From contig NZ_JALLGW010000001.1 of NCBI RefSeq assembly GCF_023074835.1, positions 2,542,001 to 2,606,000 on the forward strand: a stretch of 64,000 bases of DNA, given 5' to 3'. Source of the DNA: Halomarina salina (GTDB lineage: Archaea > Halobacteriota > Halobacteria > Halobacteriales > Haloarculaceae). The translations under genes were made by a program, and so were the position numbers. Within the stretch, counting starts at the first letter, position 1, and every line of letters begins with the position of its first letter. Shown here in pieces: positions 48,652 to 53,945 of this stretch. Below the pieces are notes generated by a model that was not told where the DNA came from, searched no databases, and saw only the letters and a program-made list of their open reading frames with translations.

Positions 48652-49704
48652 ATGGACAAGGAGGAGATTCTCGATCGGTTACGCACGGTCGAGGACTCGC
48701 GACTCGGCGACGACATCGTCTCGCTCGGCCTCGTCAACGACGTCACCGTCGACGACCGGACCATTTACATCTCGCTCGCGCTCGGTGCTCCGTACTCGCC
48801 CGCGGAGACGGCCATCGCCGGGGCCGTCCGCGAAGCACTCGCCGACGCCGACCGGGAACTCTCGCTCACGGCACAGGTCGAGTCCAACGAGGACCTCGCT
48901 CCCGAGGAGCAGGTGCTACCAGACGTCACGAACATCGTCGCCGTCGCCTCCGGGAAGGGTGGCGTCGGGAAATCCACCGTCTCGGTCAACCTCGCCGCCG
49001 GGCTCGCCGACATGGGTGCCAGCGTCGGGCTGTTCGACGCGGACATCTACGGCCCGAACGTCCCCCGGATGGTCGACTCCGAACAGCACCCGGAAGCGAC
49101 GCCCGACGACACCATCGTCCCGCCCGAGAAGTTCGGTATGAAGCTGATGAGTATGGCCTTCCTCGTCGGCGAGGACGACCCCGTCATCTGGCGCGGTCCG
49201 ATGGTCCACCAGATTCTCACGCAGCTCTGGGAGGACGTCGAGTGGGGCCACCTCGACTACCTCGTCGTGGACCTCCCGCCAGGCACCGGCGACACGCAAC
49301 TGACCCTCCTCCAGTCGCTCCCGCTCGCCGGGTCGGTCATCGTCACGACCCCTCAAGAGGTCGCACTCGACGACGCGCGCAAGGCGCTCCGGATGTTCGG
49401 CAAGCACGACACGCCAGTCCTCGGCGTCGTCGAGAACATGTCGTCGTTCCACTGTCCCGACTGTGGCTCCGAACACGCCATCTTCGGGGAGGGGGGCGGC
49501 CGCCGGTTCGCCGACGAGGTGGACATGCCGTTCCTCGGCGAACTCCCGCTCGATCCACGAGTTCGCGAAGGTGGCGACACCGGCGAACCGGTCGTCCTCG
49601 ACGAAGAGAGCGCGACCGGCGACGCGTTCCGCGAGATGGTCGAGAACGTCGCGGACAACGTCGGCGTCGTTCGCCGCCGCGAACACCAGCAGGCGACCAG
49701 ATGA
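48652..49704 (+). CDS. apbC: Mrp/ApbC-type P-loop ATPase, Fe-S cluster carrier
   Basis: A 350-residue carrier. Residues 1-75 form the MIP18/DUF59 domain; the deviant Walker A GKGGVGKS is at 101-108; [13 protein letters not shown] follows. CPDCGSEH near 265 is the CxxC that binds the labile 4Fe-4S cluster at the dimer interface. It transfers clusters to apo-proteins. Coupled by ATGA to a small downstream gene. Confidence 0.92.
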
Positions 49705-49913
49705 CGGTGGCGGAGGATACCGAGCGGGCTGCATTGCTACGGGACGTCGCTGACGACGTGCGTGGAGAGAGTTCGGAGAGCAAGCAGTTGTCCGCGATTC
49801 TGTATCGGGTCAGCGACCTGTACGACACTGACGAGGAGACGTCGCCCGAGGAGATCTACCGGGCGGTTCGGTACATGCTCCAGGTGAAGGAGCGCGGTGG
49901 CCTCGATCGCTGA
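49701..49913 (+). CDS. Small conserved acidic protein (70 aa) coupled to mrp
   Basis: Starts [19 protein letters not shown], overlapping the mrp stop by four bases (ATGA). The sequence is a helical acidic protein with SSESKQLSAILYRVSDLYD and PEEIYRAVRYMLQVKERGGL. No Cys. I do not recognise it beyond a haloarchaeal mrp-linked small protein. Its coupling suggests a role in cluster carriage or regulation, unproven. Confidence 0.75.
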   Translation: MTVAEDTERAALLRDVADDVRGESSESKQLSAILYRVSDLYDTDEETSPEEIYRAVRYMLQVKERGGLDR

Positions 49914-49914
49914 G

Positions 49915-50862
49915 TCAGCGCACCCTCCGACCGATTAGGAGAGCGACCGAGAGAACACCGATAGCAGCGACGATCACGACCAGAGGGACGCCGCGTACTT
50001 CGCTGTCGGTATCGATTCCGTCGCTGATTCCCGAGTTCCCGACGCTCGCGTTCTGGTACTGGTAGGGGTCGTCGCTCCACGGTCCTTCGACTGCTGCGTA
50101 CGACTCGTTCCACTGCACAGTCTCGCCGTCTACTCGTCCTTCGAACCCGACCTGGTCGATTCCGCCGTCGCTCTGGTTGAACTGGTCGACGTACAACCGT
50201 GCTTCACCGACGATGGTCGAGTCGGCATCGTCGAGGAGTTCGACCGTAACGGTCTCCGATTCACCGGTAGGGACGATTGCTGCGTAGAAGCTTCCATCAG
50301 TTCCCTGGGTATGAACCATCAACTTCGTCGGATACTGCTGGTCCGAGGGGTTAACGACAGTCACGTTCACGACCGTCGATTGCTCACCGTCGATCATCGC
50401 TTGAGAGATCTCGGTTTCCTCAATGTACGGGGTAGGGACCACGGAGGAGTGTTCCGGGTCGATATCGTACTCGAATTCGAACGCACGAGTGCTGCCGTAG
50501 GTAGATGCTCTGACGACGTGATTCGTCCGAAGCGCGTCCAACGACGAATTGGTGTTCACCGAAGTTGACCAGTTCTCGTGGGGAGAGAGAGTCATCTCTT
50601 CGTCAAGGACTGTTGAATTATCTCCATCTATTATGATTCCCGTACTGAGTGTCCGATTTGTGGGGTTCGTTGCGTTGATCTGGAGATTGTGAGACGTATC
50701 GTTGAATGCAAGGTAAAAATCCACGCCAGTCATCGATGTCATCTTCTTTATCTCGAGATTGTCAGAGACATCGCTCGTTTGCCCCTGCACTATCAGGGCA
50801 GACTGTCCAATTGTACTAAATAACAACAGAGAAACGACGAGCATCGTCCCGAGAGTGCGCAT
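49915..50862 (-). CDS. Exported single-pass membrane-anchored protein (accessory island)
   Basis: About 315 residues. MRTLGTMLVVSLLLFSTIGQSA is a signal peptide; the C-terminus VPLVVIVAAIGVLSVALLIGRRVR is a stop-transfer helix, so the bulk is outside and the tail inside. The body is Asn/Thr/Ser-rich with many NxS/T sites and beta strands (VNVTVVNPSDQQYPTKLMVHTQG). A longer GTG start (50922) overlaps the upstream gene's stop (GTGA) and is possible. Lower GC than the flanking genes. It is the second gene after the 1008-residue PKD protein, probably its partner. Confidence 0.75.
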   Translation of the reverse strand: MRTLGTMLVVSLLLFSTIGQSALIVQGQTSDVSDNLEIKKMTSMTGVDFYLAFNDTSHNLQINATNPTNRTLSTGIIIDGDNSTVLDEEMTLSPHENWSTSVNTNSSLDALRTNHVVRASTYGSTRAFEFEYDIDPEHSSVVPTPYIEETEISQAMIDGEQSTVVNVTVVNPSDQQYPTKLMVHTQGTDGSFYAAIVPTGESETVTVELLDDADSTIVGEARLYVDQFNQSDGGIDQVGFEGRVDGETVQWNESYAAVEGPWSDDPYQYQNASVGNSGISDGIDTDSEVRGVPLVVIVAAIGVLSVALLIGRRVR

Positions 50863-50918
50863 ATAACGGCCGAATGACTCGAACCGTAAACGGCTATCGC
50901 CAACGAATCTGGTGGGAC

Positions 50919-53900
50919 TCACTGTCCTCCCTCCGACTCACGAACACGTTCCTTGATGTCCGCCCTGCTGAGAAGCCCACGACTGGAGAAGTGCGTGCTG
51001 AAGTCGTCGATCACTCTGGCGGTGCCAGGCCCAGACCCACCAGTACGATAGCGGATGATCGTCCCACTCACAGTCGCGCGAGTTCCCACGACACGATCTT
51101 CCTCGGTGTACGCTGGACGGATGACCTCCTCTGTGTTCGTGCGACTCATCATCCATCGGCGTTCGGTCAGCGTATCGCCGATTCGGTAGTCTGTCTGGCC
51201 GGACACCTGTCGCCAGGCGGCTCGCTCGTTCTCAACGGTGTCCACCTGCTGCCACTCGTACTTCGCAGGTTGGACAATCGTGGTGTGGGACGCGACGTAC
51301 TCGCGTTCCGTTTTAGTTCTCCAAGTGCTGTACCGGTGCTCGTACTCCGTCGCGTATTCGGCTGCATCGACGAGCGTGCGTCGAACGTCTCCAGTAGCCG
51401 AATGATACGATAGATGCTTCGAACGGGCCCAGTACGTATGGGTGACGTCGACGTACACCGTCCGTTCGTAGGTCACCTCGTAGCATCTCCCGTACAATGG
51501 ACATTGACGGCTCGTAATCTCACGCGTTCGCGGTTCGACCGTCGAGTACTCGTACTCGCGTTCGGTGGAGTATTCGGCAGGGTCGGTGCGAACTCTACGT
51601 GTCTCGCCGGTGAATCCGTTTCCTTTGGTACGTCTCCACTCCGTATGCGTTTCTCTGACCCGCTCGCGATGCGTCTGAACGCCGTCGGCGGTCCACTGCG
51701 AATGGGTCTTGAGGAACAGTCGACGGCTGTACGTCGAACTGAACTCACGAGAGTCTGTATCGACGATTTCCTCCTGGGTTCGGACGTGTTCCTCGATGCG
51801 GTAGCCGACAGTAGTCGACTCGGAGTTCTTGACCTCGTAGCCAGCATCGACTAGCTGCTGCATCTCGCTACGTGCATTTGCGACAGTCGTCTCCTCGGTC
51901 TGCTTGCGGATTACGTACCGGAGGTTGGTTACATCGAGGGTGCCCCGGCCTGTTCGCTGGGACCCGGTGAGTGCCACTGTCGGTAGCGTCGTCGTCTTCC
52001 GTGCGTAGTCCGGGCGTTTCTCGTTGTATAGGACGAGTCGCGCATCCGGCCCGTTCTTCGCCAGCGCACTCGCGGGCAGTTCGATCGTCCCCTCGAATGC
52101 GAAGTCGTTCTCCCCCCCGACTGCATCGGTGTACAGTTCGTCCCATTCCACGACTTCACCAGGCACACCTCTGAGTTCCGCTCCGATGTCGAGATTTGCT
52201 GTGTTGCGTCGAAGCTGTACGAGAGCCGTTCTAACTTCAACCCGAACCGGTTCGTCTGGTGAGAACGGACCTTCTCCGACAACTTCTGTTGATTCTATAT
52301 TGGGGACTAGTGTCTTTTGAGCACTCCAATTCTGGTAGACTCTCGCCCCGGAGTCATCCTCGATAATAATTTTTCCATCCTCCCAACCAGACAATCGACC
52401 GATGGAGTCGTCTCGCTCCGTCGCCTCTGCCCCATTTTTCCAGATATAGGTCAAGGTCGTTCCATCAGGGTCGAACGAATCGCTCGCATCGATAATGATG
52501 TCCTCTCTCGTATCTATCGGAGCACGCGTCGAACCCCCCGACCCTCCAACAGGCCTCGTACCATCATTTAGCATCTCGATACGCATCACCGACTTGCTAG
52601 GAGTGACAATGAACCCTGAACTCCCGTCGCTAATCATCTTACTCGGTTGATGGGATTTCATCTCCAGAACGAACTTCACACCATACGGCGATCCTGAGCT
52701 AGGGGATTCACCAGCCCAATAGGTGTGGACAGTGGCGATTCCATCTTCTGTCGCTACCTTTCGACCGGCTATTCGACGCACATCAGTTGGCTTCTCTGCG
52801 CTGACATCGATTCCTAAATCCGCTACCGAATGCCCGTTCAAATCGATTTTCAGGACATGGTGCGCCGTGTATCGTTCTGCATCGATTCGCGGGTGATACG
52901 AGTCGACGGGTCCGTTTACGAACTCCGCCGAGACCACTTCGGGAGGTGCGAGTACTGTGACGGTGCGATTCAGCGTCGTCTGCTGTCCCCGTTCATCGAC
53001 TGCTGTGACGACGATATCGTAGTCACGCCCCGGCTTGGCGTCCGCCCAGTCGAAGTCCACTGTCGACCGAGAACCATCGTTCACCTCTCTGCCTCGTGTA
53101 CCGAGTCCGTCAACACTCACGTCGACAGACTTCAGGTTCCCGTAGCCGTCAGTTGCGCTCGCCGTTCCGGACAGCCCGTCCTGAGAGACGAGGTCGGAGA
53201 GCGACAGGTCGGGACGAGGATCCGCGACGATACGATTCGTACCGTCTGCAAAGTCTGCCTTCTCCGTCGTACCATCTGCGAAGGAGACTGTGGCCGTGAG
53301 CCTATGATCGCCAGGAGACCAGCTCCTAACCAGTGACTGACCAGTCGCCTCGACGTCGCCGTCGACAGTCCATTCGACCTGGTCGACGGTACCACTCGTC
53401 GCTATAGAGTACTCCCCTCCGAGTGGCCGGTCACCCGTGACGAGTTGCGGACCGCGAATCGTCGGTGAACGGTCGACCGGGGTTGGCGTATCAGGAGGCC
53501 CCGCGGGTGGTGGCGTAGTCGAGACTGGCGTGCTGGGGGTCGAGGTGGGTGCTGTGGTCGTCGTGGTGGGTGTCGTCGCTGCCTCGCCGACGTCGACGTA
53601 GAGCGAATCGGACGCAGTGTCGCCGCTATCATCTGTTACGGTGAGGGTGACGACGTACCGCCCGACTGTCTCCGCGACGAACGTCGTTCGAGGCTCTGTC
53701 GGTTCGCGGGGACTGACAGCAGTCCCCGTCGGTGTCTCGATACGCCACTCGTACTCGGCGATACGTCCATCGGGAGCACGTGACCCCGACCCGTCCAGGA
53801 GGACAGTCGTTCCCCGTTCGACGGACTGATCGAGGCCTGCATCCGCGAGTGGTTCGGAAATCCGGTCGACTCCTCCGACAGCAGCGACGGGTCCGACCGT

Positions 53901-53945
53901 CGCTACGACGACGAACGCAGCGAGGGCCAACGGTTTCGTTCGCAT
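50919..53945 (-). CDS. Large exported PKD-domain protein with repetitive Tyr/Trp/Thr C-terminus
   Basis: 1008 residues. Signal peptide 1-23. A PKD domain (about 35-118: ADAGLDQSVERGTTVLLDGSGS, VTLTVTDDSGDTASD), then a Thr/Pro linker (120-160), further Ig/PKD-like beta domains (165-600, including IIIDASDSFDPDGTTLTYIW near 475-500), then a C-terminal region with a degenerate 69-residue repeat: THTEW at 766 and THTYW at 835, each followed by DPAEYST or DAAEYAT and R/T-rich strands; CPLYGRC may be a disulfide loop. No anchor; its gene overlaps the anchored partner. Codons and GC look foreign. Function unknown; surface adhesin or assembly are guesses. Confidence 0.75.
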   Translation of the reverse strand: MRTKPLALAAFVVVATVGPVAAVGGVDRISEPLADAGLDQSVERGTTVLLDGSGSRAPDGRIAEYEWRIETPTGTAVSPREPTEPRTTFVAETVGRYVVTLTVTDDSGDTASDSLYVDVGEAATTPTTTTTAPTSTPSTPVSTTPPPAGPPDTPTPVDRSPTIRGPQLVTGDRPLGGEYSIATSGTVDQVEWTVDGDVEATGQSLVRSWSPGDHRLTATVSFADGTTEKADFADGTNRIVADPRPDLSLSDLVSQDGLSGTASATDGYGNLKSVDVSVDGLGTRGREVNDGSRSTVDFDWADAKPGRDYDIVVTAVDERGQQTTLNRTVTVLAPPEVVSAEFVNGPVDSYHPRIDAERYTAHHVLKIDLNGHSVADLGIDVSAEKPTDVRRIAGRKVATEDGIATVHTYWAGESPSSGSPYGVKFVLEMKSHQPSKMISDGSSGFIVTPSKSVMRIEMLNDGTRPVGGSGGSTRAPIDTREDIIIDASDSFDPDGTTLTYIWKNGAEATERDDSIGRLSGWEDGKIIIEDDSGARVYQNWSAQKTLVPNIESTEVVGEGPFSPDEPVRVEVRTALVQLRRNTANLDIGAELRGVPGEVVEWDELYTDAVGGENDFAFEGTIELPASALAKNGPDARLVLYNEKRPDYARKTTTLPTVALTGSQRTGRGTLDVTNLRYVIRKQTEETTVANARSEMQQLVDAGYEVKNSESTTVGYRIEEHVRTQEEIVDTDSREFSSTYSRRLFLKTHSQWTADGVQTHRERVRETHTEWRRTKGNGFTGETRRVRTDPAEYSTEREYEYSTVEPRTREITSRQCPLYGRCYEVTYERTVYVDVTHTYWARSKHLSYHSATGDVRRTLVDAAEYATEYEHRYSTWRTKTEREYVASHTTIVQPAKYEWQQVDTVENERAAWRQVSGQTDYRIGDTLTERRWMMSRTNTEEVIRPAYTEEDRVVGTRATVSGTIIRYRTGGSGPGTARVIDDFSTHFSSRGLLSRADIKERVRESEGGQ

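Follow-up and report, generated by a model that had tools for sequence, protein, structure and literature searches.

Many haloarchaeal surface proteins remain unassigned, and the familiar routes by which they are attached to the cell are transmembrane helices, the lipobox and PGF-CTERM. The described system whose working comes closest to that of the locus studied here may be the WxL protein with its partner WxLIP. WxLIP proteins (DUF916/DUF3324) of Gram-positive surface clusters consist of a signal peptide, two tandem Ig-like domains and a C-terminal transmembrane helix, mostly within 337–365 residues, and their gene adjoins that of a partner to which WxLIP is proposed to bind, a large secreted protein ending in a Trp-motif domain (PMC10599100). 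We compared this arrangement with two adjacent genes, P1 and P2, located between mrp and RNase J in a 64,000-nucleotide stretch of Halomarina salina DNA (the window), where the initial annotation had correctly placed them. P1 (50919..53945, minus strand) encodes 1008 residues from an ATG start and P2 (49915..50922, minus strand) 335 residues from a GTG start. They had been described as overlapping genes. Both ORFs are present on the minus strand, but their 4-base overlap may be an artefact of taking the longest ORFs, because a start at Met21 of P2 (50862), an invariant alignment column with a start conserved among homologues and probably the conserved start, leaves a 56-base gap. Between mrp and P2 there is a short plus-strand ORF of about 70 residues (49701-49913), which belongs to no Pfam family and stops one base short of the P2 stop codon; a similar ORF occurs in a related locus (L048).

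Like WxLIP, P2 comprises a signal peptide, two Ig-like domains and a C-terminal transmembrane helix, and its size falls within the range of about 320–380 residues. The AlphaFold2 model (pLDDT 79.5) and structure comparison place the Ig-like domains, all on the minus strand, at residues 55–152 (50467..50760) and 165–272 (50107..50430), and the model and hydropathy place the helix at residues 314–334 (49921..49983), with a basic RR tail. By hydropathy, the C-terminal helix lies above threshold in 20 of the 21 P2 homologues and the signal peptides of both P1 and P2 hold across homologues, which bears out the earlier description of P2 as an exported protein with a C-terminal membrane anchor. The two Ig-like domains carry net charges of -4.8 and -8.1 per 100 residues, respectively, and N-glycosylation sequons in P2 occur on average at 3.2 times expectation.

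Foldseek matches of P2 include the WxLIP-WxL structure 9i25_C (E 2.3e-4), with a low TM-score of 0.22-0.27; the scores of other tandem-Ig proteins (transglutaminase, GH2, RbmA) are equal or higher. The profile PF06030 (WxLIP_PGBD) gave no hmmscan match to P2 at E<=1 and none at E<=10 in the search of its own genome, and the assignment of P2 as a WxLIP by sequence was rejected on that ground. Because of the low TM-scores, the equal scores of other tandem-Ig proteins and the unmatched profile, we say that the pair may work like WxL/WxLIP, not that it belongs to it. The first Ig-like domain also resembles one domain of the Vibrio cholerae biofilm scaffold RbmA (Z 10.3, 1.9 Å over 91 residues), in fold only, at 9% identity, and RbmA is secreted and unanchored. 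With its C-terminal hydrophobic helix and RR tail, P2 is similar to haloarchaeal surface proteins anchored through PGF-CTERM and archaeosortase, yet the PGF-CTERM signal in P2 reaches 10 bits against a cut-off of 18.8, in one member of 21 only, and P1 has none; this mode of anchoring was rejected for P2 since the score lies below the cut-off.

P1 differs from WxL proteins in having no WxL domain, and the pair differs from WxL/WxLIP clusters in having one secreted partner only; to our knowledge, haloarchaea possess no bacterial peptidoglycan. P1 is built of several domains of PKD and Ig type and an apparently unique C-terminal domain, and its features all lie on the minus strand. Hydropathy and sequence point to a Sec-type signal peptide (residues 1–23; 53877..53945), in which inspection found neither a lipobox nor twin Arg, and beyond which hydropathy detected no transmembrane segment in P1 or across its homologues, in agreement with the initial annotation of an exported PKD/Ig protein without an anchor. 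Residues 30–121 (53583..53858) form a PKD domain by both profile and fold: they match PF22352 (E 7.6e-16, 58.3 bits against a curated cut-off of 27) and PF18911 (E 6.8e-12, 45.7 bits against a cut-off of 27), and superpose on the ColH PKD domain with a Z of 13.6 and 1.3 Å over 86 residues. Judged from sequence, this N-terminus is shared with a larger group of exported PKD proteins of haloarchaea (L056-L061 and others), to which it shows about 38–55% identity, although these proteins lack the C-terminal part (330–1008) and their genomes lack P2. Several of them (L056-L061) end in Asp/Ser-rich low-complexity tails.

A Thr/Pro-rich linker (residues 122–158; 53472..53582), recognised in the alignment and modelled with a pLDDT < 50, connects the PKD domain to two Ig/FnIII-like domains (residues 159–333; 52947..53471) found in the predicted structure and by structure searches. 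In the P1 homologues from outside Halomarina (L064-L082), an extra Ig-like domain takes the place of the linker, and the length of the P1 arm therefore varies by domain exchange. The most conserved segment, residues 335–372 (52830..52943; PEVVSAEFVNGPVDSYHxRIDxxRYTAHHV), shows 74% mean identity to 20 homologues versus 31–59% in the folded domains; this conservation, with invariant Asp, His and Tyr in the alignment, suggests that a search for function should start here. A second PKD-like domain at residues ~480–545 (52311..52508) is indicated by a SFDPDG motif and the predicted structure, and a Sde0182_C fragment is matched there in 21/21 P1 homologues.

The C-terminal domain (residues 664–1003; 50937..51956), delimited by predicted structure, composition and charge, is modelled by AlphaFold2 as long β-strands of up to 30 residues with short helices. 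It is rich in Arg, Tyr and Trp (13.5% Arg, 6.2% Tyr), and its mean net charge of about +1 per 100 residues, compared with -5 to -10 in the other regions of P1, is indirectly suggestive of a docking surface. The P1 model as a whole shows a chain of Ig/PKD domains followed by the long-strand domain (mean pLDDT 74.9, pTM 0.34), the low pTM leaving the domain arrangement uncertain. In structure searches with this whole model, the match lists were filled by the PKD/Ig part. The initial annotation had also reported C-terminal repeats of about 69 residues. Profile–profile comparison (hhalign) between slices of the 21-member P1 alignment confirmed the repeat and its period, matching residues 757–826 to 826–893 with a probability of 97.5%, an E of 7e-12 and a spacing of 69. 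There are, however, two clear copies (A, residues 757–825, 51471..51677; B, residues 826–893, 51267..51470) rather than an array, because the other slices gave no convincing match to one another. An internal Cys pair (residues 815/821) is conserved in almost every homologue, and in most P1 homologues outside Halomarina (L064-L081) the last residues form a Cys-spacer-Cys motif, such as CELKGLC, which is absent in Halomarina.

Searches of Pfam and NCBIfam returned no family for P2 above cut-off and, for P1, nothing but the PKD modules in Pfam. Neither protein matched PHROGs, and the PDB sequence search led from P1 to PKD relatives and from P2 to no credible match. As had been claimed from the sequence, the pair thus corresponds to no described family, nor did we find a strong match of both proteins to a characterised system. 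The pair was not found in the open-access literature on haloarchaeal PKD surface proteins, Ig-like adhesin operons and Haladaptatus surface proteins. P1 and P2 constitute two uncatalogued protein families.

We searched 391 evenly sampled Halobacteria genomes with thresholds of E<1e-70 for P1 and E<1e-15 for P2. P1 was detected in 50 genomes from 17 genera and 7 families and P2 in the same 50, none of the 391 carrying one without the other. By their coordinates, the two genes are adjacent and on the same strand in all 50 carriers, one pair straddling a contig break. Outside Halobacteria, a 295-genome sample of the phylum yielded matches to the PKD region only. P1 and P2 make up an obligate pair of genes that is confined to Halobacteria and present in about an eighth of haloarchaea. 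One genome with an intact pair additionally contains a second P2-like stretch on its own, interrupted by a TAG (G231:C30:262031-262804), whose appearance suggests a degenerate copy. In Halomarina rubra (G007, L062:6933-9999), P1 is broken near residue 430 into two overlapping frames, through either a frameshift or a sequencing error, and P2 is intact.

A scan of genome contigs gave 21 loci from Halomarina, Halegenticoccus, Haladaptatus, Halomicrococcus, Halorussus, Haloprofundus, Halorubellus, Haloparvum, Haloarchaeobius and two MAGs, in every one of which P2 directly follows P1. Mrp and moaA come after P2 in 13/21 loci, and divergent kor genes, which we take from their sequence to encode 2-oxoacid:ferredoxin oxidoreductase, come before P1 in 13/21, so that the ancestral order was probably kor - P1 - P2 - mrp - moaA. 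The position of kor is taken by RNase J in the lineage of the window and by another core gene in H. halobia; the RNase J neighbourhood is a lineage-specific rearrangement, kor being the usual neighbour elsewhere. No third gene is conserved beside the pair in the flanks of the 21 loci, and a third partner gene was accordingly rejected. The earlier suggestion of a secretion-linked system is not supported, as no secretion machinery is linked to the pair.

The two genes had been taken for an AT-richer island, and their deviating composition is real: GC over P1 and P2 is 0.54-0.62 versus 0.64-0.67 in the surroundings, and GC3 is 0.635 and 0.655, respectively, versus 0.84-0.89 in four core neighbours, whose codon scores are flattered because these same four form the reference. 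Lower GC and atypical codon use, together with the patchy distribution across the class, would fit a recently acquired foreign island of mobile or viral origin, which we nevertheless regard as highly improbable. The genome of the window has Halomarina oriensis, H. rubra and H. halobia as named congeners. All eight Halomarina genomes searched carry the pair, and its mrp/moaA flank is common to the Halomarina pair and those of Haladaptatus, Halorussus and Halomicrococcus, including other families; the pair is thus neither absent from close relatives nor at a different locus in them. The GC of P1 is below its surroundings in 20/20 loci, by 0.06 on average, vertically inherited ones included, and for this reason low GC is no mark of recent arrival. 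P1 and P2 evolve fast (mean distances of 0.58 and 0.54, compared with 0.19 for core genes), and their distances follow those of concatenated mrp and moaA over 13 loci (r 0.89 and 0.82, respectively), and with the mrp site ancestral in many lineages this argues against a mobile island. A viral origin was rejected for want of a PHROG match to either protein, a plasmid origin because P2 had no match in the plasmid collection, and recent gene transfer on synteny, distances and the conserved low GC. The low GC and the weak bias in codon use are traits of these fast-evolving exported proteins, which shows that GC can dip in a haloarchaeal genome without foreign DNA being the cause.

We conclude that the two genes are a genuine surface module, previously undescribed and restricted to one clade. 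We lean, by a little, towards a haloarchaeal two-component surface complex, in which P2 would be a glycosylated anchor or adaptor holding P1 through the P1 C-terminal domain, on the grounds of exceptionless pairing, fixed order, the lack of a third partner and complementary predicted topologies. The idea that P2 could hold P1 at the surface was already part of the initial annotation and, given co-occurrence in 50/50 carriers and the conserved order, is its best reading. Both proteins would be exported by Sec; P2 would stay in the membrane by its C-terminal helix and expose two N-glycosylated Ig domains outside, and the near-neutral Arg/Tyr/Trp-rich domain of P1 would dock on the acidic P2 ectodomain, or on P2 plus the S-layer. 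With such docking on membrane-held P2, P2 would act as a non-covalent anchoring adaptor. The PKD/Ig part of P1 may form a stalk or adhesin-like arm that extends from the cell, its most likely use being adhesion or cell–cell/biofilm contact; Ig/PKD chains are generic and no proof of adhesion.

The long Arg/Tyr-rich domain could also bind polyanionic surface material. P1 might then be a structural cell-wall or S-layer-associated protein binding the S-layer or glycan itself, and P2 a separate membrane chaperone or export/assembly factor, which helps P1 to fold or to cross the surface layer instead of anchoring it permanently. Obligate pairing fits a dedicated chaperone just as well, but the C-terminal anchor and dense glycosylation sequons of P2 are more typical of a surface component, and we judge this alternative rather unlikely. 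The distances of P1 and P2 correlate with each other (r 0.92) and still do so after removal of core-gene divergence (partial r 0.75; 13 loci, pairs non-independent), a signal in line with a shared complex, albeit from few loci. Adjacent co-inherited genes can share a pathway without binding, and the co-occurrence, order and correlated rates would also suit two proteins that serve one process, such as sensing, adhesion or envelope stability, without contacting each other. Against it stand the integrity of the unit in all 50 genomes and the lack in P1 of any other recognisable means of remaining at the cell; we give this possibility little weight.

If P1 and P2 do form a complex, they might represent an independently evolved archaeal counterpart of WxL/WxLIP, in which a membrane-anchored tandem-Ig receptor docks a secreted adhesin non-covalently via a new long-strand, Arg/Tyr/Trp-rich domain; we advance this tentatively and with some doubt. 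Were it true, haloarchaea would possess a dedicated two-protein display of a surface arm that is independent of archaeosortase signals. The pair is a sharply defined, testable genetic unit in the 17 haloarchaeal genera of the sample, and an obligate anchor/cargo pair of this kind would add a non-covalent display route to haloarchaeal surface proteins.
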